From Morchella semilibera (lineage: Eukaryota > Ascomycota > Pezizomycetes > Pezizales > Morchellaceae), in contig CM018609.1 of NCBI GenBank assembly GCA_009192285.1, positions 761,282 through 825,281 on the forward strand: a stretch of 64,000 nt of DNA. The letters are read 5' to 3'. This document shows, piece by piece, positions 18,162-63,669 of this stretch (its first letter is position 1; the number at the start of each line of letters is the position of its first letter). Made by a program: the position numbers and the translations under genes. The notes below the pieces were generated by a model. The model made no database searches and was not told the DNA's origin. It worked only from the letters and a program-made list of their open reading frames with translations.

Positions 18162-19928
18162 TTAATTTACCATTTCGCCCCCCAATCTATCTACTACAAC
18201 AACGTACACACATAAACAAGCAGATTGATTGCCCGTGTGCTGACAAAGAAGTCTCCCGCCCAAGACCTGCGCCTCACAAAGCACATTCTGAACCTTCATA
18301 CCTACCAGACTGGCAACCAGCACTGCGATCGTGTCAGGCGGCGCCACAGCGCTCAGCAAGAACTCCCTCATTGCCCTCTCGCCCTCATCGTCATCCATCA
18401 CGCCCCCGACACTACCAAGCATACGATACCCGCCTCTTGCCCGCTCTAACTCTCTCCACACGCCCTTCGGAAGGACTCCGTTCCTGACCCTCCAGTAGGT
18501 CTCGCTGAACGCAAAGCCGCCAAATAACCCCATTGCAGCAACAATACAGAGGACTATCAACGGCCCATAGAGGGTCTTTGACTCGTCTGAGTTCATTGAA
18601 ATGCTCTCAGCGGCCTGTAGGGCCAGGATAACCGCCTGGAGAATACATAGAAGATACGAACTTGGCGGGCGGAAGAAGGAGATGCTGGAGCGGCCGATAA
18701 AGATGAAGAACTGGTAGGTAGTAACATAGACTGGGTAGAAATCACGTTTGTGGCGGAAGACCGCATTGAGGATATCATGGCCCGTGGGGAACGGAAGATT
18801 GAATAAGAGGGTTGGAAGGACACCTTGGACAGCGGTGTTCTCGATTAACATCACAGCTGCCAGGGGTGCCATGTACCGCCAGAATAGAGGGCGGGCGATC
18901 CGGAGCTTGGAGATCATTGGGAGAGACGAAATGCTCTCCTCATCTGCTATACTTCCCCGTCTATCGCCATTGACTTGGACCCTTTTTGCGGAGTCGCAGC
19001 TAGGATTAGGTAGGAGAAGGGCATAGGTGAGAAGTATGACTACTGGGAAAAATCCAATCACAGAGATGGTTCCGCTAGGTGAAAAATGGAGCGTGGATGT
19101 GCTAAAGGTGTATATGAACGAGCCAACCAATGCGGCACATCCACTACCCGTGGTGTATCCGCCGAATGCAGTATTCGGGTAATGGGAGCAAAGCTGTAAG
19201 AAAGACCTGTTCATCCGAAAGACTTAGCGAGGAGTTGTGAGGAATAATAAGAGAAGATCAACGACATATCACCCAGATTGCTGCTCAGACTAGCCATAGC
19301 TATCCCCAGCAGACTCACGCCTGTATAGTCCACCCAAGCCAACAGCTGCAGTCCAAAGAAGCTGCTAAGAACACAAATCGTGAGCCTGAGTGGGTAATTG
19401 ACATGAACTGTTAACGAGTCCGCTGATGAATATAAACTCCCTCCGCTTCCTGTAGTACTGACACCAGAAGAATAAGATTTATCTGGATCTTCTACTCCAT
19501 ATCCTCTGCGGGAAAGAAGAGTAATAGGACTGCAGAGCTCTGGGAAGCGAACAAAAGGGACGATGATGCGAACGAGCACAGAGGGCAGCGTGTACGCGAA
19601 GAGAATCGATCCTATGGGCGCGCGGTCTCGCACTAGGCTGATAGGCTTGTTAGAACGAGATATCCAATCCTTCCTGCCTTTCTATGTTCTTATTCTTACT
19701 CGTTTGCTGCAGTAATAACAACACTATTATTCTGGTTAGAATTTTATCTATTTAACTTGAGGAAACTGTGAGTACATGCCTGAACTGCATAGCGATCAAG
19801 GTTCCGAACAACAGAAACGAGAGAAATAGCCGTGTGCTCGGCGTAAATACAACACTGGCATGGCTATTGGAACTACTCTCTAGATCTAGTGTGGAGATGC
19901 TATCTTCGCTATTCCTTTGAGTCTCCAT
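18162..19928 (-). CDS. btn1: Battenin (CLN3/Btn1 family) vacuolar membrane protein
   Basis: Read 5' to 3' on the minus strand, proposed exons are 19928-19776, 19731-19700, 19637-19263 and 19206-18162, giving about 534 aa. Joining them restores the family landmarks in order: NN-VVITAANDLV after the first membrane segment, LPSVLVRIIVPF, the SSNLGDMS motif followed by FLQLCSHYP, GGYTTGSGCAALVG (the family SSGTGxAGLxG motif), YMAPLAAVMLIENTAVQGV, QFFIFIGRSSISFFR, and a C-terminal LVASLVGMKVQNVLCEAQV. CLN3/Btn1 proteins are multi-pass lysosomal or vacuolar membrane proteins linked to pH and basic amino-acid homeostasis. The protein is longer than yeast Btn1 because of a Ser/Gly-rich loop (about residues 105-130) and a C-terminal tail. 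The first intron donor (GTACTC) is weak and leaves six extra residues. It reads as intact. It lies 2.5 kb from the aldo-keto reductase gene; cluster membership is unproven. Confidence 0.85.
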
Positions 19929-22461
19929 GGCTATGTATACGGCTGCATAGAGCTCTGGGTTCCTGGTTGGGATAGATATAATGAGGATGTTGACGTGGGT
20001 TGTAGTCAACTCTGACGGACCTCTTCCCCTCAGAAACAGCAGCGATAACAGAGCTATCACGCGGTTACATTAGCTTTACTTGTGTACTAGTCCAATCGGA
20101 GGTAAAAATGATTCATACCCAAGCCCTTCAGATTGGGGGAATTAAGGTTCTCGTGGGGTCTTGCAGCATGTGGCTTTCCGCTGGATGGATGAACTTGTAG
20201 AGGGGACAGGTGAACTGCTTTCGATGTTACCACGGTTAAGGTTAGTATCTTTAAACCAAAACCAATCAACTTACAAGTACATGTATAGAAAAGGGTGCGT
20301 AATGGGCCTAGCTAAGGTCCGGCTACGCATTTAGCAAGCCTGGGCTTGGCGTTCACAAGCTCTCAGTTTTTTAACCCCACGTACACATTTCTCTCTAGTT
20401 CAAGTAGGCCATAATATGTACTGAGAATGCCAAAGGCTAAATCCTTCAAATACCCCTGTTATTGTATCCCTGTGATGCTAGACAAGAATGTATATTTAAA
20501 TTCATCCCGCCCGACATGCCACTCGAAAGTGAAACTCAAATACCTGGATAAGCCCTAACTTTCAATAGCGAAGTCCCCTAAAAGACCCATAGCGCTTGCC
20601 GAGCCCAATATCTTCATGCTACATGATGTATTCTAGGAAAATCACCAACCAATCAACCCCGGTAAAGATCTTCAAACGAGTGATGACCTGTGAGGAGTAG
20701 ATTTGTCAGCAGAAAGACAATTAAGGAAGCGCCAATCTTTGGCCAACTCGAGTTAGGTTAGTCGCAAGAACGGACTCCGCATAAACCTGCATGTAATTTA
20801 ATGGGTACATGTAGCTAATGGTAACTGAAAGCACGGGGTCTAGGCCCGCTGCAGTCGATAGAGCGTGCTAATCAATTGGCAATCGTAGATTTTGACAATT
20901 GGTATTTTGGGATTTGGCAGTCGAGGGAGGCAAAACTACATGTAATTAACACAATTCAGCTCGAGCTAGGAGGGTTTGCGAGTGTCGCTTTAGCAGTGGC
21001 GAGGTGTCAATTGTTAAAAATATTAACAACTGTCAAATACGCTTTAATCATCTAATCCGCGTGCGTTAGGAATACTGTTCTTCCGCGGAGACATCACTTG
21101 CCTCTCAGGAAATGTCTTGTCTAGAACATGTACCGACCGGGTTGTGGGAAAGGTGACCGCTGTACTCAGCAACTACATGTACCTCATGCTAGCTTGTACC
21201 GGGTAAATAAAAGTTGAAGGATACATAGAACATCACTCGAGTTTATGCCGCTTATCAGGACGATTCTCAACTCGAAGTCTAACCCGATAAGATAAAGAAA
21301 TTGTGCCCTCTCCTCCAAAAGGCTTACATACATGTATCTCTGCTAAGGTTATTCAGTTCCATCACGTCAATTACTACATGTAGTTGTGGTTTATTCCGGC
21401 CAAGGGGATGTGAAAACTTCTTGTTAAGGCCTGCTTTGGGATTGGTCCTTGGGCGTGGAGGAAGGAAAGACCTTCTCTTTCGTCTTATTTATAAACTAGC
21501 ATGATAGGAAACTTCAATTCACCTAAAAGCTTCCTCCGGGGGAATGAATATCTAGATCAAGGTATCTCGGAGGCCAATTTGCCCCACGGGAGGACTCAAT
21601 TGGGACGCATCGGGATGAATTCTCTCCTCCGCTGTTTTCACGGGTTTGCCACAGGATCTCGGCGCCTCAGGAGGTGCTCTTAGCCACGGAGAGCACTCAG
21701 CTTAACTGCGGCCTAAAAAGCAGTCTTGTTTGTATTAGACTGCCGAATCGAGGCTGAATCAGGGCGTATCAATGTAAGTCATTGGGTCTAAGGAAAAAAT
21801 TGATAGTATTTGGGGTGTTGTAGAGCACGCTAGGCTGGAGGCCAAAATCAACCACCTGTTATCAACATGTTGTAGTATAAAACGAGCCCTTATGGCCGAG
21901 GCCCGAAAACTAGCATTCATTCATCCTCAACACCGAGGAAAGACAAATCGGAACACGCCGATCCAAAACGTAGAAGCCGGATGTGTGTTTCTATTTCATA
22001 TTTTCTTTCTTCTCATTTTTTTTTTCGTTTATCTTCGATATCTAGTCTAACTTTACAGGCATTCTGTTTTCTAGGTAGGGTATATATAATAGAGTAAATA
22101 AGAGAAATGAAAGCAAAGTTTTTACCCCAACGGCTAGTCCTACCGGTTTAGACTTACCACTCTGGCATGTTGTTCATTCGGATACGTTTCGATGTCGAGG
22201 CGGACGGGTTGCGTCTTATTGGCCTACTGCACTGCGGGGAGCATGAATACTGGGCGTGTTTATTGCACTGCGTTGTTTACCTAGTTCATCTGGAACGTTG
22301 GAAAACGTAAAGCAACAGAACTAAATTCATGAATTGCCAAATGTGCCACTCCTTAAACGAGAGCCTCCACGCCACCCTCTTTTCTATCGTTCAACCACAG
22401 TTCCCACAAATCTCGCCCACATGGCCCTCCTCGACTAGAAAACAAAAGCACTGGCTAGTAC
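19929..22461. other. Intergenic region between btn1 and the reductase gene
   Basis: No gene is supportable; the longest open frames are about 65 codons. The interval contains the btn1 promoter side and the 3' flank of the aldo-keto reductase. It has six TACATGTA palindromes at 20278, 20806, 20937, 21174, 21329 and 21375, the densest local group in the window. Homopolymer G/C tracts are absent. Confidence 0.6.
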
Positions 22462-23480
22462 TTACGGACAATTCGCAAGGTACGGGCAAATAGCTCCTTC
22501 TTCATCAGGCAAGACTTTATCATCGAGTTGCTTCATCTCCTCCTCCGTAAGTTCGAAACCATACACATCAGCATTGCCTCTGATTCTGTCTGGGTTATCA
22601 CTCTTTGGCAGTGGCACAAATCCCTTTTGGAGAGACCACCGTATAAGCACTTGTGTAACTGAGACGCCGTGTGCCTTGGCAATTGATTGAAGGGTTGCAT
22701 CATCATTCTTCTGGGCTCGAACTAGGGGTGCATAGGCCTGCATACTTCGTTAGAACACCTCTGAGGGGTCACAGAGAGGCTAGAGACAAACCTCAATGAC
22801 AATGCCGTTATCCTTACAATAATTGACAACTTCACGCTGTTGACACCATGGATGCAGCTACAAAAGAGTGGGTTTTAGTTTTGATGAGTTGGGGTGGGTT
22901 AGGAGTGGAATGTACAAACCTCAACCTGATTCACTGCTGGGACAGTCGATGAGTACTCTCTAAGCTGCTCTAGGTGCTTCACCCCACTATTCTTAAAATC
23001 AGTTTCTAGTTTTCTTATTTATAAAAACAAGGGGGAAACATACAAATTACTCACACCGATATCCTTCGCCCCTCCCTCCTTTTTCAACTGCTCCAACGCA
23101 GTCCAGAGCTCTTTTCTTCCCTCCTTTCCACTGGAAGGGGTATGAATCAAAAATAGATCCACATACCCGAGCCCAATTCTTTCCACACTTTCCCTTAATG
23201 CCTGCAGCGATTTCTCAACGCTTCCAACGGGTTGCAAGATCTTCGTCGTAACATAGACGCTTTCACGTGGTAGGCCGCTCTCGAGGACTGCCTCACCTAC
23301 TTGAGCTTCGTTTTCGTAGTATTGAGCTGTGTCGATATGACGGTATCCAAGTTTGAGAGCAGTTAGGCAAGAAGCCTTGCATAACGACCCCTCAGAACGG
23401 TACACCCCAAAGCCAATGTGAGGGATTTTGTTAGATGAGCCGGGGAGAGGGAGAACATCTTTGATTGATAATTTGCCCAT
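22462..23480 (-). CDS. Aldo-keto reductase (AKR superfamily)
   Basis: Four exons on the minus strand, 23480-23055, 22991-22920, 22857-22792 and 22737-22462, give 279 aa. NADPH-dependent aldo-keto reductases of this size reduce aldehydes and ketones to alcohols in the cytosol. The classical tetrad and motifs are visible: IPHIGFGVYRS near the start, GYRHIDTAQYYENE (Asp and Tyr), YVTTKI (Lys), YVDLFLIHTP (His), then VPAVNQVELHPWCQQ, YCKDNGIVIEAYAPL and the cofactor-binding VPLPKSDNPDRIRGN. Exon 1 to 2 splicing loses the usual Val-Ser of IGVSN, so the 5' site of intron 1 may be slightly different. The gene is divergent from the NRPS-like gene with an 850-bp shared promoter, suggesting co-regulation. 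In the cluster context it is a candidate for reducing the aldehyde released by that enzyme to an alcohol (inference). Confidence 0.9.
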
Positions 23481-24330
23481 ATTGAACGAGATTTAAAGGA
23501 TGGGATGGAAAGGCTGTGTGAGTGTATGGACTATGTAGGAACTTAGAGAAAGCTCAAGATGGGAGGGGATTCGGGCCCCTTAAACATATAGCGGGGTTAA
23601 ACGGTTAAACGGCTATTGTGACGTAATCCGAATAATTCTCAGTAGCAAGTCTCTGTCACTTGCAGGAGTCTCTCTGTTGATAACCGCCAAAACAGGCTAG
23701 ACTATACCAAACAACTTCGGCTAAGTAAACCAGGTACTTAACTTTCCACTCTCAACCCATGAAAGATACCCTACATATGGATATAGTCCGAGTATAAAGG
23801 GGTACTTGGGCGTTTGAAATAACTATTTAATACCCCCGAGATTCTGGTTCAGTAATAGTTCTCGCTCAGGTCAAGCAATTACAAAGGGGTGGCTTCTTAG
23901 AAGGATCTGAATTTGGGAGATAAGAACTCCTGGCCCCCCGTTGATAAGTGTATTATTGGATGACTTCCCGTGGGAATTTAGATTCCAGAATCTGAATCTG
24001 AACTGAGGGGTCGGTTCAGATTTCTAGACCTCGGGAACCTGGAAACCAGTAATATGATTGGTTGTTCGTGGGCCTTTGCCACACTGGCTAGGGAATCTAG
24101 GTTCTAACTTTTCTACGGGAAGTCGTCCATTGTATCTTTTAAATTGCGCTATATATTACGTCGTTAGCCTTCTAATTTCTCATCGGTAGAGTTCTTCGCT
24201 CGTGACGTTTACTGATTTAGAACGGGCGCTATATATATGTCGATTGTGTGGGGGGGAGGGGTTGAAATTTGGATTCTTCTTGCCTCAATTGGACCCAACT
24301 CTTGCAGAAGCTACTGTAGTGATACTCGTT
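23481..24330. promoter_or_regulatory. Bidirectional promoter, AKR / NRPS-like
   Basis: This 850-bp interval separates the divergent starts of the aldo-keto reductase (ATG at 23480, minus) and the A-T-R reductase (ATG at 24331, plus), so both promoters must lie in it unless upstream exons exist. It carries a short inverted-repeat element at about 23956-24130, described separately. I see no recognisable transcription-factor site that I would defend. An alternative in-frame ATG for the plus gene lies at 24202, but the frame ahead of 24331 does not resemble the family. Confidence 0.5.
23956..24130. mobile_element. MITE-like inverted-repeat element
   Basis: TTGGATGACTTCCCGTGG at the left end faces the reverse complement of the right end (ATGGACGACTTCCCGTAG), an imperfect terminal inverted repeat of about 18 bp. 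Inside, AATCTGAAC and its complement GTTCAGATT form a second, nested stem near 23990-24025. The whole is about 175 bp, without coding capacity, which fits a miniature inverted-repeat transposable element. No clear target-site duplication was found. It sits between two divergent cluster genes. Confidence 0.5.
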
Positions 24331-27300
24331 ATGGACAAGCTTAAGATCCCATTTAATGCCGGGGGATTAGGTGATCTCAGGGAAGATTTTACAAAACGTT
24401 CATATTTTGCGTCGACTCTCGATGTTTCCCAGCGGATAAATTCCACCAAGCCACACGGAATTAAAACTATCATCCAGCTGTTGGAAGAGCGTGAGAAGCT
24501 GGTACCCAAGCGCCCAGCAATAGCAATGGCAGTTCCTGGGGCCGACCTTGACGGAGAATGGGGAAGCATATGTTTTTGTGAGTATATCCTGTGTTGAGTA
24601 TCTGGACGACGGTACTGACAATAATCAATTCCGAATACAAAGCATTTGAGGAGCTCTCGAGAGCTTCAAACGAGTTGGCTCACACAATGGTTTCACGGGG
24701 CGTTGTCCCAGCCGTATCCAATGAAGATATTTTGAAAGGTCCGCCTTGTGTAGCGATACTATCCGAAAGTTCCCTCGAACTTCTCCTAAATTTCCTGGCA
24801 CTAGCCAAGATTGGTCATACTGTGGTGTTAATTGCGTAAGTACATTCAATCGGATACTTATCTTGAATGTTGATCATATCTACTTCAGACCTCAGTGTAC
24901 CAAGCGTGCAGTCTCTCACCTTCTCAAAAGCACGAATTGCGCACATGTATTACATTCACTATCACTTACTGAGCTTGCAGTCTCATCTAAGCCCCAAGCA
25001 TGCAAACACCATGCCCTGCTTGATATACCCGTGTCACAAACAGCCAAAAGATATATCACTCCAGATGCAATAACCAGTTCAACGATTGCATACGTCCACC
25101 ACACGTCTGGAACATCGACGGGTTTTCCGAAACCTACCCCCCAAACCCACGCAGCTGCAACTTTACACTTACCATACCTTCCACCTGCAACTCCGACCGC
25201 AGCCTTTACCACAACCCCGCTCTACCATGGTGGTACGGCAGATTTGATGCGGTCATTAATGTCATCTTCACTACTATGGTTGTATCCACCATCGGTTCCG
25301 TTGATCAGCGGCGATATTCTCAAGGTTCTCCAAACTGCGGAAAGAGTCAAACTACCAGTAAAACTCTTTACGACTGTTCCCTATGTACTTGAAGTTTGTG
25401 TGGAGCATGAGGAAGTCATGAAAAAAATGATTGGAATGGACATGGTGGGGGTTGGTGGAGCACCGCTAAAACCCGAGGTTGGCACAAGATTAGTCAAAAG
25501 TGGGGTCAAGCTTATCTCGCGATTCGGAAGTAGCGAATGTGGATGTACAAGCCCTAAATATGACGAGCTCTTACAATACTGGAAAACTAACTTAAGTGGT
25601 AGTTCTAATGTCATCTTATCGTGATTTCGCCATGGATCAGAATTGGGATTACCTGCGAGTTTTACCCGGTTGCACCACCCTCCACTTCGAGTCACAGGAA
25701 CAGAGTTGTGGGAGGGTTGAGCTTGTTGTTCTTCCAGGATGGCCACAAATAGTGCGCTCTCCCTATTAAGACACCGGCCAAATCATAACTAATCACTCGC
25801 AGGCCAAGCCCAATCGCCCGGATGGATCCTATGCCACAGGGGATCTATTCTTACCGCACCCAACTATAAAAAACGCGTACAGGTACGATGGGCGCAGCGA
25901 CCTCACGATCGTTCTCTCCAATGGTAAAAAGTTTGACCCCACCCATATAGAGGAGGCCTTCAAGGAATACAGCTTGGTGAGCGAGGCGATGGTTTTTGGA
26001 AACAATAGGCCGTTTCCAGGACTGCTTCTTTTTATGAACGTTCACCGAGTACTATTTGGGGATATCAAAGAATGTGTACAGGAGGTTAACAAAAAGACAC
26101 ATATGGGAATCATGGAAGAAATGGTCGTTGTCTTATGTGCCGATGAGCACCCACCAAAAAATAGCAAGGGGACAGTTATGCGGGGGGCCATCGATGATAC
26201 TTATTCTAAGGAGATACAGAAGGCATACGAGCTGTTTGAATGCCGCGGTTCCGGGGAAGGGGTGAAAACTACAGATCTTCAGGGGGTAGCGGATATAGTG
26301 CGTGCCATTGTTAGGGGCACAACTGGTAAGGAGATCAATGACGATGCGGACCTGTTTAATGCTGGGGTTGATTCCACCATGAGTGCGCAGATACGTAACA
26401 GATTAACGAAGGTTTGTGAAAGATCAAGTACAAGATCATAACCAATCGTTAATTTCTATACAGAGCCTTGAAATCCAATGGTCACTGCCGTTAAATGTAG
26501 TCTTCGAACAAAGGACTATTGAGGGGTAAGGAGAATCACCCTATACTGTTAACTAATTTTGTATAGTTCGTCGATTTAATTATCATCTGACGGTTATATA
26601 TAGGCTTATAAGGTTCATAAGAGCCCGCGGAGAAGGAAATGGGGGTGCTTCCGATCGGCAAGCGGACTTGATGCTCCGTTTGGTGCAAAAATACACTGAC
26701 AGAATCGATGACCGTAACATGAATTTATCGGGGTTGACTGATACTAAGGATGGCCATGTAGTTGTAAGATTCTCGCCCAGAAACCTTTTAAGGCTTGAGA
26801 AACTGCAATCTAATATATACCTAGATCATCACCGGCGTTACAGGATTCTTGGGGGCTCACATATTTAGTCAATTGTACAATTCCAGGGGAGGAATCACAA
26901 AGATTGTGTGTCTTTGCCGTGCTGATGATAATTTACATGCACTTTCACGCGTTGAGAAGAGTCTAAAGGCACGTAAACTCTCAGGACTTGGTGAAAATGG
27001 TCCTAAGGTGATGGCGTTTGCTGCAGAACCAGGGAAAAACCATTTAGGCCTCGATGAAAGTACTTACAGCCACCTTAAAGAAGTAGCTACACATATTATT
27101 CATGTAAGGGGACCGTACATACACCCAGCCGTAATCTTGCAGTTTTATACTAACTCATCTAGGCTGCTTGGGCGGTCAGCTTCGTTGCATCTTTCGAAAG
27201 CTTTGAAAAAGACCATATCGCGGGTATAATCTTATTTCTATTATTCTTTCCGCAAATATCGATAATAACTGGCTTTACTGACTCAAATTCTAGGAGCTCA

Positions 27301-28291
27301 CAATCTCATTAAATTAGCACTTGATTCAAAAAACTGTGCAAAATTTTACTTTTGCTCATCTACCGCAGCAGTTCTTGGCGGCACCAAACACTCTGAGACT
27401 ATTCTGGAGTCCTTTACAGATGACCCCCACACCGCAGAACCACTGGGGTACAGCCGTTCGAAGTGGGTCACGGAAAAGATTTGCCAGAAATTAAGTAGCA
27501 GGGCTGCAGTATTAAGAATTGGACAACTGTGCGGGGATACGATGCACGGTATATGGAACGAGACCGAGGCGTGGCCTTTGATGTTTTCTAGTGCAAATAT
27601 TGTTGGGTGTCTCCCGGAGCTCCAAGAAGTGACTATACCCATGACTCGCGTGTTTATGGCACCACGGCTATTGCTTACCTAGGCGCTCCAATTCCAATTC
27701 CATTCTCTTTAGAATTTCTGGAACTATGTACCATGTTGACCTCCGGCGATTTGGCTAACGGGCAAACAGAAACTATCATGGCTTCCTGTCGATTTAGCAG
27801 CTCAGATTGTACTGGACATCGTACTAAGCGACCGTTTAAATGAAATCACTGGCGACCCAGTATTTAATGTGGTAAATACAAATACTTCGGTATCATGGAG
27901 CGAGGCTCTGGACTGGATAAAAGAACTCGAGAATGCAAGGTTCAATCGAGTTTCCCCTAGTGCATGGGTTAGGAAATTAGCCAATACCAAATCTGGAGCA
28001 GGGAATTCAAGCCAGAAACTTTTGGGTTTATGGGAGTCAAAAGTAAATATCGAACTTTTAACTAAGTATCAATCTTTTCATCTATTTTGAATTTCAATTG
28101 ACTTTACTTGGCTATAGTATGGGCAAGGGGCTGGTCACGGTACATCTAACGGCGAGACCTTGGAGTTTGAAACGAAAAACGTGGCAAGATTCTCAAGTGT
28201 TCTTGAAAGAGATGGGGGCTGGAAATTACATAGGAAATATGTGCAAAAGATTTGGAGCAATTGGGTACAAACTGGGCTCGTTAAAGTTTAG
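24331..28291 (+). CDS. NRPS-like A-T-R carboxylate reductase
   Basis: Twelve exons join without a frame break to 1065 aa: 24331-24577, 24643-24835, 24889-25544, 25603-25751, 25803-26411, 26464-26525, 26604-26763, 26825-27103, 27163-27223, 27294-27628, 27770-28042 and 28118-28291. Domains in order: adenylation (residues ~1-560; YVHHTSGTSTGFPKP, RFGSSECGFLMSS, SYATGDLF, NSKGTVMR), carrier protein (~575-640; DLFNAGVDSTMSAQIRNRL, with the phosphopantetheine Ser in GVDST), and thioester reductase of the NAD(P)-binding SDR type (~690-1065; TGVTGFLGAHI, FYFCSSTAAV, YSRSKWVTEK). There is no condensation domain. Such enzymes activate a carboxylic acid as AMP ester, load it on the carrier and release it as aldehyde with NADPH. 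All catalytic motifs are present, so the gene looks functional. The substrate cannot be read from the sequence; context suggests a mycosporine-amino acid. Confidence 0.9.
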
Positions 28292-32248: not shown

Positions 32249-33683
32249 ATGTCGGACCTTACTGCTACCGTTTCCGAAACTGAGCTTGGATTCCATGTCG
32301 AAGGCTACGAAAAGATATCTTATGGTTTCACATTCCTTGATGGCGTCTTTAATACGAAAAACTCTCAACTTGCGGACATGTACAGGAAACATAAGCGCTG
32401 TCTAGCCGTGACAGACATCAATGTCGATAGAATATATGGTGGTGAAATGAAAGAGTATTTTGAGTTTCACAATATCAAACTGGTTATCCATAAGACCAAG
32501 ATCGGAGAAAAGGCCAAGACAATGGAAACCCTCCTTTCCATCTGCGACGCCATGAACGATTTTGGCATCATCCGCAAAGAGCCTGTCCTTGTTATCGGTG
32601 GTGGACTGATTACCGATGTTGCTGGGTGAGTAAATAGTAACGCCGATCTCTACTATTTTGGTTGCAATTAGTAACCAACCCTAACCCTGAAAACTGCTGA
32701 TGGTAAATATCAGCTTCGCATGTGCAGCCTACCGCAGAACAACAAATTTTATTCGAATTCCGACCACACTCATTGGCCTCATCGATGCATCAGTATCTAT
32801 TAAGGTTGCAGTAAATCATGGTAAACACAAGAATAGGCTCGGTGCTTACCATGCCCCAATGCACACCTTCCTCGACTTCACTTTCCTCAAGAGTTTATCA
32901 GACGGCCAGGTCCGAAACGGATTCGCCGAGATCGTTAAGATCTCTACATGTGCAGATAAACAGACTTTCGATCTTCTTGATAAATACTGCGAGGAATTGA
33001 TCGAGCAAAGATTCGCTCGTAAAGCTATAGATGAGGGTGACGAGCTCAAGAAAGCCGCGAGGGACAAGCTCAAGGAAGCCGCCGATACAATCAACTATAG
33101 AGCAATTCACGTTATGCTGAAGCTCGAAACTCCTAATCTTCATGAACTTGCGCTCGACCGTGTCATCGCATACGGCCATACCTGGTCGCCAACTCTCGAG
33201 CTTGCACCAGAGACTCCTTTGAGACACGGTCATGCTATCTCTGTTGATATGGCCTACTCGGCGACACTAGCATGGATGCTAGGCCATATTTCTGCCGATG
33301 AACATATGAAGATCCTCAACCTCTTCTCTAGGGCTGGATTGACCATTGACCACCCCTTATTTGACGAAGTACTATTGGCCAAGGGCACAGATGCCATCCT
33401 AAAGACACGCGATAATAAACTACGGGCTGCCATTCCATACCCATTGGGAAAATGTACTTTCCTTAACGATGTAACCACCAACGATATGAACGAGGCTCTG
33501 AGGTTGCATAAGGACATTGTTAAAAGATTCCCTAGGAATGGGGAAGGCATTGATGCGTTTGTTGATTCCTCCGATACTGGAGTTCCTGATATTAAAGAGC
33601 GAGTTGCCCCCCAACCCCCAGCAATGAGAATGGGCCAATTTAATATGGCTGGGAGGATGGAGTCCAACAGGCTTCCTAACTAA
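32249..33683 (+). CDS. mysA: Sugar-phosphate cyclase, MysA (DDG/EEV synthase) type
   Basis: Two exons, 32249-32625 and 32714-33683, join to 448 aa. The protein is a dehydroquinate-synthase-fold cyclase: VLVIGGGLITDVAGFACA (NAD-binding Gly-rich), IPTTLIGLIDASVSIK, the active-site KNRLGAYHAPM, NGFAEIVKIS (metal-binding Glu), and YGHTWSPTLEL plus LRHGHAISVDM (metal-binding His). GHTWSPTLE and the hydrophilic 3' extension fit the sedoheptulose-7-phosphate cyclases (desmethyl-4-deoxygadusol synthase or 2-epi-5-epi-valiolone synthase) rather than AroB of the shikimate pathway. With a MysB-like methyltransferase and a MysC-like ligase beside it, the desmethyl-4-deoxygadusol synthase role is preferred. 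NAD+ and a divalent metal are the family cofactors. The C-terminal ~40 residues are Pro/Arg-rich and not family-typical. The frame is intact. Confidence 0.92.
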
Positions 33684-34761: not shown

Positions 34762-36222
34762 ATGTCGTATTCAGAAAATGGAATCAAAAACTCGCCGCAT
34801 CGTCCATCCTTCGCAAGGCATCTTTTCAACAACATCTCTCTAATCTTTCTCAGCCTTCTAACTCTACCCATTACGATTACCTTAGTATCTATATGTCTTT
34901 CGTATGCATATCTCTTTCCGGCTCTTCCAACGCGGCCTCCTTCCCGCAATCCGGCGCCCCCGAAAACCGTTCTCATAAGCTCCCTCTCGATGACGAAAGG
35001 CCTATTCCTTGCTCGAGCTTTTTACAAAGCCGGACACAAAGTAATCGGCCTAGACTTTGAGCGCTCCTATATCCCCTCCAGCGGACGTTTCTCGAAAGCT
35101 GTCTCATGGCATTACTCACTGCCAGACCCAGTCACAGATCAACAAAAGATGAAATATATAAGAGATCTAGTGGAGATAATAAAGAGGGACAAGATCGACT
35201 TCTGGATATGTGTTTCTGGAGTATCAACGACAATTACCGATGCGCTCGCAAAATCTGAAATCGAAGGAAAGACCTCCTGTCAGGTATTTATACTTGAACC
35301 AGAAACATGCAAAACACTCCACGAAAAAGATCTCTTTATTCAGAAAACGGCCTCCATTGGACTCAATATCCCAGGAACAACGACAATCAAAAGTCACGAG
35401 GACGCCCTGGAATTCCTAAAGGGGAAGAGACCGGAACGCTACATTCTGAAATCGATCTGGCTTGATGACGTCTCTAGAGGAGACATGACCTTGTACCCAC
35501 GGCCAAGCCTCAAGGAGACAACAGCTTTGATTATGGCACTTAGCATCTCGACTGATAAACCTTGGGTCTTTCAAGAGTTTATCCATGGCGACGAATATTG
35601 TACTCATGCAGTTATTGTCAAAGGCCGTATTACCGCATTTGTTGCGTGTCCTTCATCGGACTTATTGATGCATTATGAACCAGCCGACTTAAAGATTTCT
35701 CGGAGGCTACTAGATTTTACGGAAACATATGTCAGAAGTCTAGAAGACGGATTTATGACAGGGCAGATGTCATTTGACATAATTGTCAAGAGGAGCGCAG
35801 AAGCAGAAGGGGAACCAACACTATACCCTATTGAATGTAACCCTCGCACCCATACTGCTGTCGTATTATTCAGAAATATTTCAGAAGTCCTGGCTGAGTG
35901 CTACGTCGGCCCGTCCACAACCTATGGAAAAGAAGTCACCATTCCCGACCCCTGCGCCACCGATAGTTTTTACTGGATTGGGAATGATGTAGTGACACTT
36001 TTGATACTTCCTATCCTTCATCTTTCTGGAATTACGGGCTCCTTGCGAGAATTCACACTGCATCTTTTGTTTTGGAGAGAGGCAACATTTGAACTCTGGG
36101 ATCCAGTTCCATTCTTGTTTCTTTACCATGTTTACTGGCCTGGGTTGTTTCTGAGGAGCCTTTTGACTGGTATAAGGTGGAGTAGGGTTAATGTGAGTAC
36201 TGGGAGGGTTTTTGAGTATTAA
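34762..36222 (+). CDS. mysC: ATP-grasp ligase, MysC type, membrane-anchored
   Basis: A single open frame encodes 486 aa without introns, unlike its neighbours. Residues ~28-53 form a hydrophobic helix (SLIFLSLLTLPITITLVSIC), a probable N-terminal membrane anchor. Then comes the pre-ATP-grasp fold (PKTVLISSLSMTKGLFLAR, VIGLDFERSYIPSSGRFS) and the ATP-grasp core (YILKSIWLDDVSRGDMT, WVFQEFIHGDEYCTHAV, TGQMSFDIIVKR, and the metal-binding YPIECNPRTHTAV). MysC ligases couple an amino acid to 4-deoxygadusol with ATP, giving a mycosporine such as mycosporine-glycine in cyanobacteria; the amino acid used here is unknown. The C-terminal ~60 residues are hydrophobic and aromatic (LLFWREATFELWDPVPFLF) and may contact the membrane. 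Start chosen at 34762, the first ATG of the frame, 21 nt after a 20-nt tandem array. Confidence 0.9.
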   Translation: MSYSENGIKNSPHRPSFARHLFNNISLIFLSLLTLPITITLVSICLSYAYLFPALPTRPPSRNPAPPKTVLISSLSMTKGLFLARAFYKAGHKVIGLDFERSYIPSSGRFSKAVSWHYSLPDPVTDQQKMKYIRDLVEIIKRDKIDFWICVSGVSTTITDALAKSEIEGKTSCQVFILEPETCKTLHEKDLFIQKTASIGLNIPGTTTIKSHEDALEFLKGKRPERYILKSIWLDDVSRGDMTLYPRPSLKETTALIMALSISTDKPWVFQEFIHGDEYCTHAVIVKGRITAFVACPSSDLLMHYEPADLKISRRLLDFTETYVRSLEDGFMTGQMSFDIIVKRSAEAEGEPTLYPIECNPRTHTAVVLFRNISEVLAECYVGPSTTYGKEVTIPDPCATDSFYWIGNDVVTLLILPILHLSGITGSLREFTLHLLFWREATFELWDPVPFLFLYHVYWPGLFLRSLLTGIRWSRVNVSTGRVFEY

Positions 36223-48150: not shown

Positions 48151-51100
48151 CTAATTCCACCCATAGTAACTCGGATCCCATGCCTGCCCTGGGTAAGCCG
48201 TAGCACTCATCTCATATCCCTCCTCCTCATCTGTCGCAATCTTCTTGAATGGTTTAACCGTCTCGCCGTGCAAGTCTAGGTTGACCGCAATTTTCTCTGT
48301 CGAGAAATCAAATTCCTCCTCTGTCCCCTTCTGTGCTAGAGTTGGCGTTCTCTCATCTACAGGAGCATGAGAAGCCCCTGGAAGGGCGGGGGAAGGATCC
48401 CCTGAGCCGGTCGCGCCACCCAAATGACTTGTCTCGTGTAATTTATTCTCAACAATCTTAGGGGGGTGGGGTGGCGGAGTCGGTGATACAACACGTGATC
48501 TCTCATCTATTTGCGCTGGAGGGGGACCAAAAGGTGTGTCCATGGGCGGAGGAGAGACCGGTAGTGGTGTACTGCGCGGAGATATCTCGTGGTCACTGCC
48601 ACTGTTCTTGACTTGAGTAACAGAGTGTGGAAGCGGTAATGGCTGCTGGTACCGCCGATTGTCGTTTTGCACTTGTTCTTCTTGGGTTGAGGGCTGTGTA
48701 GAACTTGGGTGTTCTGGGATATCACCCTCTCGCAACGAAGGTCGTCGTCCGTATTGTGTGCCTACTTCAGAATTTGGGCTCAAAGAACGAGTCGTTTCAT
48801 ACGTCCGCGAAGCTTGTGTTCCTGCTCGTGACAAATTTGGGCTTATGTTTTGACTATCTGAAGTGCGAGCATCGGAGATTTGTGAAGAAACTTGCGAAGG
48901 ATTCCTATTAATAGACGTCGATATATTAATAGACGTCGATATATTGATAGATGGTGATTGGCCAATCCTTGGGTCTATGTTTGTAAACTCTTGCCTATGA
49001 CCTTGAACCTGCTGCGGTTGTGGTGGTTGATATGCGTATTCACCTTGAGGGCGTGCGTAGCCCTGTGGAATAGGAACAGGTGCGTATTGCGGTTGTCCTT
49101 GCTGTGGAGGGGAAGCATGGGTCGTTGGAGGGACAGTAGGTTGTTGCGGTTGCGGCTGTACCTGCTGCTGCTGTGGGGGGTGGGGATGAGGCGCCATAGC
49201 AGAACCTGCCAGTGGGCTTCCCCGCCCTTGAGCATGACGCGGAGACTGTTGAGCATTTAGGTTCTCGACATATTGTTGCTGCTGTACTTGAGGATTTCCG
49301 TTCCATGGGCTGTGACCTCCCAGCCCAGTAGGACGTTGCTGCAGTTGCTGTGGTTGTGGCTGCTGTTGCTGTGGTTGATATTGCGGCTGAGATTGTCGCT
49401 GTTGCTGCTGCTGTGGTGGCGGTGGCTTGTGTGCGGAGGTCTGGGACGGGGTTGGTGATGGTGACTTTGTCAACTTACCAAGCATGGATCCTGTCCTTCC
49501 AAATACATCCTATAATCTAATTAGTACATACTTCCATGATGGGGGGTGTCCCGCTGGTGGGAGGGTAGAGGGAAATCCAACCATTGAAAAGACCTTTTTG
49601 TGGCTCTTTTTCTCCTTTTTCTCCTTCTTCTCTTTCGAGCTTCCGTCACCTTTGTCCTTTTTTCTACCCTTCATGAATGACGACGAAGACCTTCTTTCGC
49701 CCTCCTGCTTTGTTTCGTCGCTAATGGTTTTTGGAATTACGGGATCCGCCTGTTGAGGAGATTTCACGGTCTCACCCACCTTGGCCAGGTTCCCAAAGAA
49801 ACTTGAGCGCTTCTTTTCCTGTGAGCTAGTAGTAGATTCCTCATAATGCGAGCCCGCACTGTTAGGAGGCTGAAGATTCGAATCTGTAGATGGTCGCTGT
49901 TTTCCACTAACGCCACTAAGAGTCTTCATTAAACCGGACGACATACGTCTAACACCCGGAGCTTCTGGTTGTTGACCAATCGAAATGGGCTGTCCAGGAT
50001 GGAATGGGGGCCCATGGTGGAACTGGGGACCGCCTTTAAATTGGCCGCGAGGGTCCCGAGGATCACCTGGTGCAGATTGAGTACCGACAAATTGGCCCTG
50101 GTGCCCCATGTACTGACCCTGAGGTCCCATTGGCACTGGTTGAGCATTCGGCCCAAATTGCGGGGATCCCGTGCCTGAATTCCCAGCACCAGAAGGCTGC
50201 CTTGGTCGGGTATGGTCTACTACAAATCCTCCTGGGCTTTGAGGAAAGCTACTTTGGCCTATTTGTGGTGGAGGTCCGCCCTGATAGCCTTGCTGATATT
50301 TCTGTTGCTCGGAGTACGGTCCACCCCCAGTCACTACTCTTGGCGGTGATGCCTGCTGCATCTGTATTTTTGGAGGTGGCGGAGGCGTGGAATATAAATC
50401 ATCGTCATTAGATTCCTGCCTACTAAGCTGTGGTAGAGCTCCAGTCATCTGGTTTAAGATAGGCCCCTTTTGTTGCTCGTTGCCCATATAAGGTCCAGGA
50501 TGAGACTCTATATAGTTCATCTGCGGAGTTTGCTTGACGTCTACTTGGGGCTCTGGGGTGATGGCTGGTGCGGCCCCCGGGACAGTTCCAGTAGTTTTTA
50601 CTGGTTGCTGCAGTACCTGTGGGGGCTTCGGTTCCCCGAATCCATCTTCAGAATTGTCATCGCGAGGAGCAAAAGCGTTCTGTCCACGTCTTTCTCCCGC
50701 ATAACGACTCTCCGCTGGTGGTGACGGTTTTTGCGGGATAGACTGGAAAGCACCCTGAGCCTTATGTGGGTGTGCAGATAACGGCGAAATTTTACTTTCA
50801 GGGTTAACCAAAGCGGGTGGAGAAGTCAATGAATCAGACCTCTTTGGGACCTGCTGAAGTTGCTGTTGCCGGGAAAGTGAGTCTGACCTCATGTTCCTTT
50901 GGTGCATCTCCTGTGTCGAAGAAAGGGAATCACTCCTATCAGGCCTTTGTGCGGTCGCAGGAGAGGTTGATCGCGTATCTTGAAACTGCTTCTGAGAGTA
51001 CAGGCTATCAGACCTCTTAGGGAAAGCTTGTGCCTGCTGCGGCGTTGTAGCCTGAGTAAGAGGAGGATGTGGTGGGGTACTATTATGCTCTGATTTCTTG

Positions 51101-54100
51101 TCCTCAATGATGTGAGAAGGGGGAGACGATCTAGAAGGCTCTGATGGAGGAGGCGGCGGTGGCGGTGGTGTGCTAGTTGGCTGCTGATACTGCGGGTTGA
51201 CTGAGTTCACTATGATTTGTTGGGGCACTTGCTGGGGCACTTGCTGGGGTACCTGCTGGGTCACTTGCTGGGGCACCTGCTGGGTCACTTGCTGGGGCAC
51301 TTGCTGAAGCATCTGTTGGGGCACCTGCTGGGGCGCCTGATGGGTAAATAGACCAGGCCCAGACACTGAACGTTGCTGTGAAATACTTGAACCCGGTATG
51401 ATAAGATGCGGCGGCTGTGGTTGAGATCTAGGTCTGTGTTGTGGTACCGGTACTGGTTGCAGCGGCGGCTGCCCTGGTGGATATCCTGAAGTCCTAGGCG
51501 GTGGGCCTGCTGGCTGAAGCGTAGGTGGCTGAGATGTAGCTTGAGTTTGAGCCTGCAAAGCTTGAGTTTGAGCCTGCAAATTTTGCCCTCGTTGAACCAA
51601 CTGCGCAAGATCATTCTGAGCTTGAGGGGAATGAGAGGGTTGTGCCGGTGGAGACGAAGAGACCTGTCCCTGTCCCTGTCCCTGAGATTGTTGCTGTTGC
51701 AAAAGCTGCTGCGAAACCTGTCTCTGGTGTCCCTGAAACCCAGCAGGCGACTCTTGCGGTTGCGGCGACGCCATATGTTGAAATGCTGGCTGAGAGAATA
51801 ATGGGTTTGGCGACGAAGCGGGGGAATCTTTACCCTATTTCCCCATGTCAGCGTTATTAGTACTTAACACATTTAGACAATGTAACAAACCTTCTTTCCA
51901 CCAAATCTACTTAAAAAGCCCTTTGCCTTGTCTACAGCTTTGTCCATGGGTGCATGCATTTGCGATCCACCAGACCCGCCGGTTATGATACTGGGAGTTG
52001 GTGTTGTACTGTTTCCGCCAATATTGTATCCGCCGTTGCCGTTGATGTTCGTCTGACTAGGTCTTGAGCCACTTGCTGAAGGTACCTGAGAGAGCGGCGA
52101 TCCTCCGGATGGTACCGAGTGATGATCTGATTCTGAGCTTGGCTGCTTAGACATGGGCGTAAAATGCTGTGGGACTCTTCCATTTGGGGATTGAGGCCTT
52201 GATTGTGATTCCGCACTGAATATTGATGTCTGAGCCCCCCCGTTCTCCTCCATCATGTACTTGACCCAATTATTTAAGCCTGTAGGTGTATCTCCTATCA
52301 CCTTGCGAGCATGGTTATAAGCTGCAACACGGTCCTTAGATGTGGGTAGGCGGGCGGCATCGCGTGGGTCTATGTATTGTGTTCCCCCCACATCCACAGA
52401 TCCTTTATTATTAGGTTCCTTTGTAGCTAGTTCTTGTTTAAATGTCTCGTGGTCTTCGTCCTCGTCCTTTTCACTAAAGTCGACTACATCGGGAACCTCC
52501 TCCTCGCCTTCTTCCTTGGGCGGCATGGGCGGCATTACTAGAACTCCAGAAGGCATTGGCATCGTCTCTTTTAGCATCAACGTTTGTGGCCGGGAAAACT
52601 GGTTCAAAAGTTCTCTGGCATAGTCGCTCTGCATAGGCGTCTTTTCACCGTCCCCATCATCCTCCTTTTTCGATGGTTGAATGACAGGGCCTGTAATGGC
52701 TTCAATACCCTCGCTTTCGGGGCCAAGGATACGCGTTTGTGGGATGACCTGGAGACCTTCGGACGGAGAATTTATTCTGATCTCAGGAGTTCCTTCTCTT
52801 CGCAGTGGCGCGTCAATAACTGACTGTCGATCATCCGTTGACTTATCATTAACCACCTTATGGCCTTGAACGATCAAAGTAAAATCATCGTCTTCGTCCT
52901 CAATATCAGCCCTATCCTCTTCCGCTGACTTCTTCACTTCTTCTTCCTTCGCCTTCCTCTCCACTTGTTCCTCTATACTATCCTTCGCCTCTTTAGTGGC
53001 TTTCTCCTTCCCTTTATCCCCGCTTTCCTCGGCTCCTGAATTCCCGGTTTGCGTTCTCGCTAAGAATTGCCTTCTTGCAATCATCATCTCCAATAACTCA
53101 CTATCTGGTTGTTCCGACGCACTCGCGGGAGTAGACTCAGGTCTTTCTACTAGAATGGATGTATCTGGAATTGAGACAGGCGTAGGTATAATCCTCACTG
53201 TAGTGGGGCCCCCCTTTGGAAGCGGGAGAGGAGGTATTTCGGATACTGAGTCCCGATTCGAGGATGCAGACATAGCCGAAAGCAGTTGGAGGTCCGGCGC
53301 ACTTGGTCTTCTTGGGTTTTTGACTGGAGGCGGTGGTGGAGGGGGCGGGGTCTCTTCTTGGGTCCAATAACTGTCGTAGAGACCTAAGACTCCAACGCTC
53401 TCCCTATCGCCGCTGTGACTGCTCGGCACTAGATATTCATTTTGCTGTTGCTCTTGAGAGTGTGGTTGTTGCTGCTCCAATTGAGGTTGTTGGCGCTGTT
53501 CATGCTGAGCTTGCTGAGCTTGCTGTTCGTACTGCTGCTGCTGGTATTGCTGCTGTTCGTACTGCTGCTGTTCGTACTGCTGCTGCTGCTGGTATTGCTG
53601 CTGCTGCTCGTACTGTTGCCGCTCATATTGCTGCTGCTCATATTGCTGCTGCTCGTATTGTTGCCGCTCATACTGCTGTTGCTCGTATTGCTGTTGCTCG
53701 TACTGCTGCTGGTGTTGCGGCGACAGCGGTAGCGCTCCTTGTTGGTGGGTAGGGCCAAAACTTGTCGGGTCAAACGGCCGCTGCTGCTGTTCGTATGGAC
53801 GCTGCTGAGCCACATGTATAGCCCCAAAGCTTGATGGATCAAACGGCGCTGGCGGTGCAGGTTGTACATGTTGCTGCTGTTCAAAACCTTCAGGCCCAAT
53901 ATATCTCTGCTGCTGCTGTTCCCTCTCATTTATCTTCTTTTGATCCACCTGATTCTCCTCACCCGCATACAACTGCTGTTGCTGCCAACCCTCATATTGC
54001 CCCTGCCCTTGATATGCCGAATTCTGCCCTACCCCAAAGCTATCGGGCCCAAATGGCTGCTGCTGTATATACTGTTGCTGTTGGTTGAATTGTGCTGAAG

Positions 54101-57100
54101 GGTCATAAATTTGCTGCTGCTTCGATGGCGTATTATCGTACGGCGCGTCCTCTGGCGCGGGAGACTGTGCCCGCTCCAATTCACCAAGGAATGTGTCTAG
54201 ATAATCTTTTTCTGGACTTCTGCTACCTTTGGTACTACTCTGGCTTCCTTGGCTATCCCGACTCTCTTGACTTTCCTGGCTCTCGACTGTGTCTTTTCGT
54301 TCCATGTTCTCGGCTTTGTCACTCTCGTCCTTGGGAGACGTAACCCAAACCGGTGGTGCATCCCTCCTTTGCCCTAATGCCGGTGTATCTGGCGTCACCT
54401 CCGCAATCTCGCCCCGTGAGCCCTGTGTATCTAGCATTGGCACAATAATTGGTACGCTTCTCTCTGCGCCCATTGATTTCCTAAATGGAGTCCTCGTGGT
54501 ATAAGACTCGTCCTTTGATTTTCTCTCTGTATTACTTCTCTCCAACATATGGTGAACTAGTGGGGGAGAAAGTGATGTTGAAGGAAGTGGGGTGGTGTTT
54601 GTGCGTGTAATGGTGGTGAAGTTAGCAGGCCCACGTGGGAGAATAGGGGAAATGGCATCGTCAATGCTACTGCTAGATGGGGCTGCTTGATTGTCCTCAT
54701 CAGATGGTATTGGAGAAATCGGCGTGGCCGGGGTGGGGTGATGCGGCTCTTGCCTGTGGAAGGCGCTGCTGACCATAGACTTGAAACCCCCGCTGGGGCT
54801 TCTTTCTAGACTAGACTCGACCCGGGTGCTAGATTGTGTTTGCGGAGGATTGTGGGTAGTGCCGAAGTTTGGAGGGTCGAACGGTTGAATTTGATCATCT
54901 TGATATATATCATCGGAATCGCCATAGCTAGAAATAATACCATCATCCCAAGTTGATATCCTCTTCTCCTGTTGCTCGTTCTGCCTTTTTTCATGATCAA
55001 TACTAATTTTCGTTTCAAAAACAGGGCTTGCTGGAACTGTTGTTAGTGGAATTGGCGGTAATGCACTTGTAGGAGGTGGGAAAGGGCTAGGACTTCTGGC
55101 CATTTCCTGCCGAGAGCTAGGCCGAGAACCCTCAGCACGACTACTAGATCTGCTGTGAGTGCGGCTCCCAGAACGACTCGTCCTCCTAATAGGCTCTTGG
55201 CGACTGCTAGGCCGGCTCCCATTGTTCTCTCGGAGCTCGGGTATACGATCGCCGCCCCTGTTCCAGGCCTGTTGGGGGTCCAAGGAGAGGTGACTGCGTT
55301 GGGAATCGGTGCTAAGACTAGCATTATGTAGTATGGGAACACCGCCACTGGCTGTGGAATCTATACTATAGCGGCTGGCTGTGTGTCTGGGTCTACTATC
55401 CGCATCACTAGCTCTACGTTCCTTTTCTCTTACTTCCTTAATGCGTTCGTATATTTCTGACGGGCGGATGAACCTTCTTGGAGACTCAGGAGCCGACGGC
55501 GGGGGAGGGGGAGGTGAGGATGGGTGAGAAGGAGAGGAAGGAATGGAGTTGACCGCTATTGTGGGCTCGGGCTGTTCCAGGGGGGTCTGTTGCTGTGGAG
55601 GTATTATAGGTTGGGACTGGGGAATGGAAGAAGACTCTTGAGGCTGTGGAGGAGGAGAGTGAGACTGTTGTTGATTTGTATGTGAATAGGACACATCTTC
55701 CACGTACGAAACTCCTTGAACTGGTGGTGCGAGTTGCTGTGACTGTTGGGGATGTGGGGCAGAGTAGTACTCTTCGTCCATATATTCGACCTCTTGAGCC
55801 TTGGGACTAATGCCGCTTGCGATCTGATCACGGCTTTGTTCGGGTGACTGTCTTCCTTCAGAGCCCATGGGGGTAGCTGCCTGCTGGCCGCGCATAATTT
55901 CGGGCGACTGCCGTCCCTGCGAGCCTTGGGGACTTCCGGATTGATCTCGCCTTTCCTCAAGGGAGTATTGCAGTTGTGACCCTTGAGAACTCCTGTTGCC
56001 CCCATATTGATCTTTTCCTAGGTTTGCTAAGTTTTTGCTCTTATTGGTAGGTCTCCTAGGAATTGAATGTTTCTGAGCAAGTTGTCCTTGCGGTGCTGAT
56101 CCCCAGCTTGTTCTAAGGGGTGTAGTTTCTGCTCTTTTGATACCCTGGAGTGGGGGTTCAGAATACCCCACATTGGAAGGTGAGCTATAGAGCAACTGAG
56201 GCAGCTCATCCTGCTGGATTTCATTTTTTGGTGGGAGCGGGGGCGGAGGTGGGGGTGAAGTAGGTAATGTTGAGTTTGATTGAGCAAAAGGTGAATTTTG
56301 GAAAGGAGGAAGTTGTCTATCACTATCTGGACTATCCTTAGGAAGTGGCATTGGTTTATTCGGACTATCTGGGCTATAATCTACGGTGGAAGGCGATCCC
56401 TGTGGCTTTTGACCCATACCGGGTCCCATAGAAGAATACCCGTACCCCATTCCGAAAGGTTGAGGTGATGATTCCCTTCCAGGTGAAGATGATCTAGATG
56501 CAGAGTTCGGGGAGTAATAATCCCTTGGCGGAAGATATTGATCCTTGGAGGGGGGAGGAGGTGGAGGGGAAGGCTGGCCATACATTGGAAGTGGTTTATC
56601 AACTCCCATTGTCTGGGCCCTTTGGATACCCCTCGCAGGGCTTGACGAACGAGAAGTCATGATTTGAGGTAAGAAAGATTGAAGAATCCCGCCCGGCGAT
56701 TGTTGCTGACTGTTATAAAATGGAAAAGCGCTTTTTCGCGATGCCTGCTCTTGCTGCTCCATCTCTAATGGCGTTGGCGGCAAAGGTATTCTCAGATCCG
56801 GAGATTGTGCCTCTACCCTCGGAACTGCCACATTTGCTGGTCTGCCTAGTTCAGAGAGCTTTACAACCGGTTTTGGCATCGACGGCGGTACATCTTCTTT
56901 CCTCCCATATGAAGCACCCTGCTGAGAGTATCCCTGACCACCTGAAGATGGCTCGTACCCATCATCGTCGTAGTCGTCATCCTCGTAGAAATCATCATCG
57001 TCTCCCCAACCCCCGCCGTCATAGTCGACAGTTTTAGCCTCTACCCACCGTTTTGATTTTGCGCGGTTAAGGTTCGTTTTAAAAGCTGGAGCAAGGAGGG

Positions 57101-57291
57101 GAGCTGAAGGAGTTCCGATGGGCGGTGGTGGTGGTGAGGTCCTACTATATGTGAGCAACGCGAAAGCTGGAAACAGGAGTCCAAGAAACTATATTTCTTT
57201 TGAGATCAGAGGGGAGGGGGGGTGGGTAGGTAGGATAAACAGACATTGGAGAACGTGTTTCGTCGAAAGTTGTGAGAAATGGTCTTGACAT
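48151..57291 (-). CDS. Giant Q/P/S-rich disordered scaffold protein
   Basis: Minus-strand exons 57291-57245 (tentative), 57141-51891, 51834-49594 and 49509-48151 join in frame to about 2965 aa. The N-terminus has NLNRAKSKRWVEAKTVDYDG and a GGWGDDDDFYEDDDYDDD acidic patch, a signature I recall from large disordered proteins of filamentous ascomycetes. Then come long Ser/Pro/Gln-rich tracts, a glutamine array of QQQYEQ units (about 53460-53730), a Glu/Lys-rich helical stretch (about 52880-53030), and a small conserved block (AARLPTSKDRVAAYNHARKV ... GLNNWVKYMME, about 52260-52380) that may be its only folded element. C-terminal parts repeat QQVPQQVTQQ (about 51220-51330) and end AYPGQAWDPSYYGWN. 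Intron 3 has a TACTAAT branch site. A cortical or actin-patch scaffold is plausible by composition only; function unknown. The 5' exon could differ. Confidence 0.8.
53450..53735 (-). repeat. CAG/CAA-type glutamine repeat in coding sequence
   Basis: Read on the minus strand, CAG/CAA codons interrupted by TAC/TAT-GAG/GAA give tandem QQQYE units with QYERQ variants, more than a dozen copies. The array keeps the frame of the large scaffold gene. The same stretch creates spurious long frames on both strands (leucine-rich and serine-rich). Confidence 0.85.
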
Positions 57292-63668: not shown

Positions 63669-63669
63669 T

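Follow-up and report, generated by a model that had tools for sequence, protein, structure and literature searches.

A divergent carboxylate reductase and aldo-keto reductase gene pair beside the mycosporine genes of Morchella semilibera: a candidate step to amino-alcohol mycosporines

Amino-alcohol side chains distinguish many fungal mycosporines from the amino-acid forms. The MysA-MysB-MysC clusters of bacteria and of Phaffia bring together a desmethyl-4-deoxygadusol synthase (DDGS), an O-methyltransferase (OMT) and an ATP-grasp ligase, and the accessible text of the genetic study on Phaffia (PMC10057719) describes a three-gene cluster. The genetic origin of the amino-alcohol side chains looks open, since the same text has the ligase (ATPG) incorporate glutaminol itself and leaves the origin of glutaminol unstated. 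Here we analyze a 64,000-nucleotide stretch of the genome of the morel Morchella semilibera ("the window"; contig CM018609.1, here C7, C7:761282-825281), which, unlike the Phaffia cluster, carries five contiguous genes: an aldo-keto reductase (AKR) on the minus strand, an adenylation-carrier-thioester reductase (A-T-R) enzyme on the plus strand, a COMT-type O-methyltransferase (minus), a DDGS/MysA (plus) and an ATP-grasp/MysC (plus).

This cluster probably makes an amino-alcohol mycosporine through a carboxylate-to-alcohol module that acts after MysC. From the gene content, the intact frames, the conserved catalytic residues, the orthology and a linkage that recurs in other fungi (by contigs and gene numbers), we infer the substrate, the order of the steps and the product as follows. 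DDGS would form desmethyl-4-deoxygadusol, the OMT would turn it into 4-deoxygadusol, and the ATP-grasp ligase would join an amino acid to the latter. The A-T-R enzyme would then adenylate the free carboxylate of the mycosporine-amino acid, load it on its phosphopantetheine arm (at Ser606) and release it with NADPH as an aldehyde, which the adjacent AKR would reduce with NADPH to the alcohol, leaving a side chain of the serinol, glutaminol or glutamicol type.

The identity of the mys genes was established by comparison with known proteins and with bacterial loci. The window DDGS is 68% identical to an Ascochyta fabae record named desmethyl-4-deoxygadusol synthase, and its best named homologue among the matches listed comes from M. 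importuna (82%). In the Protein Data Bank (PDB) it scored 480 bits with 5tpr, the Anabaena DDGS, 225 with 4p53, an EEVS cyclase, and at most 111 with DHQS entries, so that an EEVS or DHQS identity was rejected. The main open reading frame (ORF) of the OMT matches Pfam Methyltransf_3, with 5zy5, a probable catechol O-methyltransferase 1, as its best PDB match (E=3.4e-42). The ATP-grasp protein found no useful match in PDB and none in Pfam, and scored 214.8 bits with NCBIfam PRK06849, under that model's cut-off of 406. A search with the window DDGS found 25 bacterial loci, mostly of actinobacteria, in which an ATP-grasp homologue (about 29-35% identity) adjoins the DDGS homologue in 23 cases and an OMT homologue in 12; both window genes are homologous, then, to neighbors of DDGS elsewhere. 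Unlike the window cluster, these 25 loci, two of them shorter than 8 kb, all lack a match to A-T-R or AKR at E<=1e-5. Both reductase genes look like a fungal addition to the mys genes. By eye, the N-terminus of the ATP-grasp ORF includes a hydrophobic stretch (around residues 25-50) and hydrophobic segments lie near its C-terminus, which suggests a membrane-bound MysC.

The A-T-R gene is broken in six-frame ORFs, and we considered and rejected a pseudogene: 12 exons separated by GT-AG introns form a single open frame with no internal stops. One of these introns (26526-26603) restores the frame where an alternative 41-base intron leads out of it. The Pfam domains of the product are, in order, AMP-binding, AMP-binding_C_3, PP-binding and NAD_binding_4, with no condensation domain, and His260, the carrier Ser606 and the reductase residues Tyr858 and Lys862 are invariant in an alignment of 18 A-T-R proteins. 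Both the domain order and the catalytic residues are those of a carboxylate reductase (CAR). In PDB the top match is 8aep (named acetyl-CoA synthetase-like protein), which spans the reductase part. A Lys2 identity was rejected on the score with the alpha-aminoadipate model (112 bits, with a cut-off of 1030), and a glycine-betaine (A-T-R-R) reductase on the absence of a second reductase domain. In cyanobacteria, too, an enzyme resembling a nonribosomal peptide synthetase (NRPS), MysE, adjoins mys genes; MysE has an A-T-TE architecture and releases its product through a thioesterase, whereas the release domain of the window enzyme is a reductase. The A-T-R core is shared with ChNPS10 and the A-T-R-R glycine betaine reductases, which in the accessible descriptions carry an extra C-terminal dehydrogenase or R domain (PMC2823734, PMC8403587), whereas the window A-T-R has one reductase domain.

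For the AKR gene, Pfam Aldo_ket_red was matched on the ORF that carries the first exon, and among solved structures the protein comes closest to YvgN and prostaglandin-F-synthase AKRs. The residues D50/Y55/K80/H113, read off the sequence, presumably form the D-Y-K-H catalytic tetrad and, with the Aldo_ket_red domain, place the protein in the AKR superfamily. Its best homologue among the matches listed is from M. snyderi (85%). When two lichen AKR orthologues were searched against the whole genome (56.8 Mb, 23 contigs), the window AKR came first, with 59-63% identity as compared to at most 52% elsewhere. This AKR is predicted to carry out the aldehyde-to-alcohol step. The preliminary description of this DNA had noted a divergent A-T-R/AKR pair next to mysA/B/C, and the spliced models, Pfam matches, catalytic residues and identities of the neighbors all confirm it. 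The region between the two start codons is common to both divergent genes and may be regarded as a putative promoter region.

We further examined whether homologues elsewhere correspond to the window A-T-R or to its relatives in the same genome, which has other A-T-R genes on contigs C18, C20, C1 and C15, plus one Lys2-like gene. The homologue set consisted of the best 120 of 643 found, headed by one from Morchella sextelata, with 80% identity across 75% of the protein. All 120 score the window A-T-R above the four paralogues, the Lys2-like gene and weaker NAD_binding_4 matches standing outside this test. As the paralogue models were assembled from tblastn pieces and are incomplete (852-941 aa), the full-length comparison favored the window protein; the comparison was repeated with the window protein trimmed to the stretch covered by the paralogues, again giving 120 of 120, with a minimum ratio of 1.11, a median ratio of 1.27, and a median identity of 39% to the window A-T-R as compared to at most 32% to the paralogues. 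That these homologues are orthologues of another A-T-R of the genome was thus rejected against the four paralogue models. In a 36-row tree the window A-T-R groups (99/95) with those of two other Pezizomycetes, Ascodesmis and Sphaerosporella, and three paralogues fall elsewhere; the fourth (C15) sits on a very long branch and its placement is unsure. Judged from sequence, the window A-T-R defines an ascomycete orthologue group.

Members of this group tend to share a contig with DDGS. Linkage was inferred from contigs of equal listed size and from locus-tag numbers taken as sequential, not from DNA, and the counts cover those species in which both matches come from one assembly, among the matches listed. 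In 12 of 17 species A-T-R is found on the contig that carries DDGS, where 0.4-0.9 would be expected for genomes of 20-50 Mb; this expectation assumes the genome sizes, has no unrelated family as a control, and treats related species as independent, which makes the probabilities too small. Sharing persists when the pairs on contigs below 1 Mb are taken (8/13), as in the 17,182-base contig of Lachnellula and the 195-kb contig of Sphaerosporella. The AKR shares a contig with A-T-R in 6 of 10 species, at a distance of 2 gene numbers in Xylographa trunciseda, X. soralifera and Circinaria calcarea (a contig of 13,705 bases), 4 in Lambiella insularis, 13 in Ascochyta rabiei and 325 in Plenodomus lindquistii, and with DDGS in 5 of 11 species (6 gene numbers apart in Endocarpon pusillum, on 143,986 bases). 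DDGS lies on another contig in Xylographa soralifera, Lambiella and Circinaria, where A-T-R and AKR are together. Four cases were left out of the counts for differing assemblies (Boeremia exigua, Paraphaeosphaeria minitans for A-T-R/DDGS, Elasticomyces elasticus, Exophiala dermatitidis); Parastagonospora nodorum was left out for AKR/DDGS as well (one tag prefix, with numbers 040930 and 040390, and contig sizes from other strains). Also left out were pairs drawn from separate species of one genus (Candelina, Alternaria, Pyrenophora, Elsinoe, Cryomyces, Periconia and Morchella). By the preliminary description, orthologues that are never linked to mys genes would refute the proposal; we found the opposite, with A-T-R/AKR/DDGS linkage recurring in several ascomycete lineages.

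The same counts bear on whether the AKR is a partner at all. The A-T-R might act on the mycosporine-amino acid and leave the aldehyde to general AKRs or to cyclization, and indeed A-T-R and AKR lie on separate contigs in 4 of 10 species, while close AKR homologues occur in genera such as Aspergillus and Penicillium, for which no A-T-R is named among the 120 listed. Yet 5 of 10 species have the two genes 2-13 gene numbers apart, the window has them as a divergent pair, and we regard a non-partner AKR as very improbable. Extending the proposal beyond the morel, we lean towards an ascomycete module, composed of a distinct A-T-R clade and a dedicated AKR, that would reduce the carboxylate of ligated mycosporine-amino acids in a manner dependent on a phosphopantetheinyl transferase, and would supply the missing reaction towards mycosporine-serinol, -glutaminol and -glutamicol in morels, lichens and black fungi.

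The adenylation pocket gives some indication of the substrate. Aligned with LgrA and with NRPS domains from this genome, the enzyme has His260 where the FDxS motif has its Asp; three NRPS domains from this genome retain FD there. This A4 Asp, Asp235 in PheA numbering, characterizes adenylation (A) domains that activate amino acids. The window enzyme has His260 instead, within a YHGG pattern seen in 116 of the 120 listed homologues (YHAG in 2; the pattern was not found in the other 2). Because His260 replaces the Asp that binds the alpha-amine, the enzyme is unlikely to act on a free alpha-amino acid, and the pocket fits an N-linked mycosporine-amino acid better. These features matter for a different order of steps, in which A-T-R and AKR would convert free Ser, Glu or Gln to the amino alcohol and the ATP-grasp ligase would attach it afterwards. 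Pyronema omphalodes, like the morels, belongs to the Pezizales. Mycosporine-glutamine, -serine, -glutamicol and glutaminol-glucoside are all listed for it in the accessible text of a review (PMC4665425), so that this member of the morel's order has both acid and reduced forms, an indication that reduction follows ligation. Reduction before ligation would agree with the glutaminol incorporation reported for the Phaffia ligase, and A-T-R enzymes that act on free amino acids do exist (clade I, as described in the accessible part of PMC9605436); with His at the alpha-amine site in 118 of 120 homologues and FD kept by three NRPS domains of the same genome, we nevertheless consider this order rather improbable.

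His260 alone does not point to mycosporines, because a His is equally required in NcCAR, which reduces aryl and aliphatic acids: in the accessible text on this enzyme both H237 and Glu433 (of an NGEK motif) are essential (PMC5826065). Fungal CARs of the NcCAR type share with the window enzyme the domain order, the carrier Ser, the YxxxK reductase motif and the His in the A4 region. The window A-T-R differs from them in belonging to its own orthologue group, in its linkage to mycosporine genes, and in having Lys457 at the position of the NGEK Glu, so that it is not an NcCAR-type CAR in the narrow sense (H237 and Glu433 were matched by motif, NcCAR itself being outside the alignment). Lys occupies this position in 15 of 16 orthologue rows, the window included, and Glu in the three NcCAR-like paralogues; overall, 31 positions of the aligned A region differ between the orthologue group and these paralogues, D265, W277, C364 and K457 among them. 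Fungal CARs fall into seven clades, two of which have no known member according to the accessible part of PMC9605436.

The most serious competing explanation is that A-T-R and AKR serve another product by reducing an unrelated acid (aryl, fatty or keto), and stand beside the mys genes through ancestral linkage. Apart from the His shared with NcCAR, this would account for other A-T-R genes that lie away from mys genes and near AKRs: the A-T-R at C20:4111000-4118500 is about 1 kb from a divergent AKR gene, and that at C1:3151000-3160900 about 5 kb from an AKR gene, both without DDGS (the only second DDGS match in the genome is weak and on another contig). These two pairs are possible acid-to-alcohol modules, and pairing alone is therefore no proof of a mycosporine role. 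On the other side stand the 31 positions named above, the contig sharing of A-T-R and DDGS far above expectation, the lack of a ketoacyl-synthase match on C7, and the lack of a recognizable acid-making gene among the 26 distinct window proteins and ORF pieces run on Pfam, which cover part of the window. Taken together, we judge an unrelated acid to be unlikely, though less so than the other alternatives. A ketoacyl-synthase match was found at C15:769395-770106, about 5 kb from the A-T-R-like gene at C15:773000-779500. The latter is therefore the likelier candidate for a polyketide-derived acid and is perhaps a member of a polyketide cluster; its tblastn pieces contain three stops, which may reflect introns or decay.

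Several points weigh against reduction of a mycosporine-amino acid by this pair. A-T-R/AKR pairing appears to be a recurrent acid-to-alcohol device in this genome and not specific to mycosporines, and we know of no metabolite from this strain. Where tags can be compared, in five species, A-T-R and DDGS are separated by 23, 25, 54, 112 and 345 gene numbers, distances of tens to hundreds of genes that would also suit an unrelated acid; they are on separate contigs in 5 of 17 species, to which the 4 of 10 separations of A-T-R and AKR are to be added. We interpret these patterns as the remains of an old linkage, relaxed by now in many lineages but kept more tightly between A-T-R and AKR. Finally, Phaffia DDGS, OMT and ATPG expressed in S. 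cerevisiae gave a peak assigned to mycosporine-glutaminol without a reductase, according to the accessible text of PMC10057719, where the assignment was made from high-performance liquid chromatography, by retention and by co-migration with the peak from Phaffia. If this assignment is correct, at least one fungus manages without A-T-R, a point that also speaks for an unrelated acid. The reduction proposed in the preliminary description is partly supported, and better so than when it was put forward: it is favored by orthology, recurrent linkage and the pocket, and disfavored by non-specific pairing and by Phaffia.

No A-T-R or AKR was assigned to mycosporine reduction in the open-access titles and abstract openings that we searched, a scope that leaves out most subscription papers, and the same search gave no useful match on Morchella mycosporines. 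Mycosporins in Morchella esculenta were reportedly the subject of a 1991 paper. Glutamicol-glucoside is listed for Ascochyta pisi and Cladosporium herbarum in the accessible part of PMC4665425, and among the matches listed A-T-R homologues are present in A. rabiei and C. fusiforme. Colletotrichum makes the unreduced mycosporine-alanine, as seen in the accessible part of PMC4527079; it has DDGS, and is not named among the best 120 of 643 A-T-R matches, which we did not use as evidence. A role of a mycosporine-like NRPS product in sporulation control is put forward as speculation only in the accessible text of PMC3360786. If reduction of ligated mycosporine-amino acids by the A-T-R/AKR pair is correct, two genes would serve to predict reduced-mycosporine production in fungi and lichens, and heterologous production of these compounds would become possible. 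It would also explain the NRPS-like clusters homologous to mycosporine clusters that, in the accessible text of PMC8403587, occur in most Hypoxylaceae genomes; that text puts forward no role for the NRPS-like gene.

Table 1. Genes and other features of the window; gene models are based on sequence and homology, not on transcripts.
Feature	Window position	Strand	Structure	Basis
CLN3 (battenin) family gene	18162-20069	minus		Pfam
AKR gene	23480-22462	minus	4 exons, 281 aa	spliced model
AKR exons	23480-23044, 22986-22920, 22857-22792, 22737-22462	minus
Divergent intergenic region, AKR and A-T-R genes	23481-24330		850 bp between start codons	start-codon coordinates
A-T-R gene	24331-28291	plus	12 exons, 1065 aa	spliced model
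A-T-R exons 1-6	24331-24577, 24643-24835, 24889-25544, 25603-25751, 25803-26411, 26464-26525	plus
A-T-R exons 7-12	26604-26763, 26825-27103, 27163-27223, 27294-27628, 27770-28042, 28118-28291	plus
MysB-like catechol-type O-methyltransferase	30215-29114	minus	4 exons, 281 aa	spliced model
OMT exons	30215-30165, 30030-29877, 29814-29216, 29155-29114	minus
DDGS/MysA	32249-32625, 32714-33683	plus	2 exons, 448 aa	spliced model
ATP-grasp ligase, MysC-like	34762-36222	plus	single exon, 486 aa
Gln/Pro-rich very long open frames	48151-57188	minus	452, 774, 1771 aa
Lys-Ala-Pro repeat long open frame	60740-61930	minus
ORF with weak HTH_SB match	63520-63984	plus		sub-threshold Pfam

Between positions 22462 and 36222 we recognized these five cluster genes and no others; the intervening DNA also holds three ORFs (107-116 aa) that match nothing in Pfam. 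Pfam runs on the ATP-grasp and eight other ORF pieces gave two weak sub-threshold matches only, and those on ten further window ORFs sub-threshold matches only. The CLN3 family gene forms the left flank of the cluster. Further to the right, neither the very long Gln/Pro-rich frames nor the Lys-Ala-Pro repeat frame, which resembles a histone-H1-like tail, has a Pfam match. Near the end of the window, one ORF shows a weak sub-threshold match to HTH_SB, a transposase helix-turn-helix (E=0.00098), and is a possible transposon remnant.

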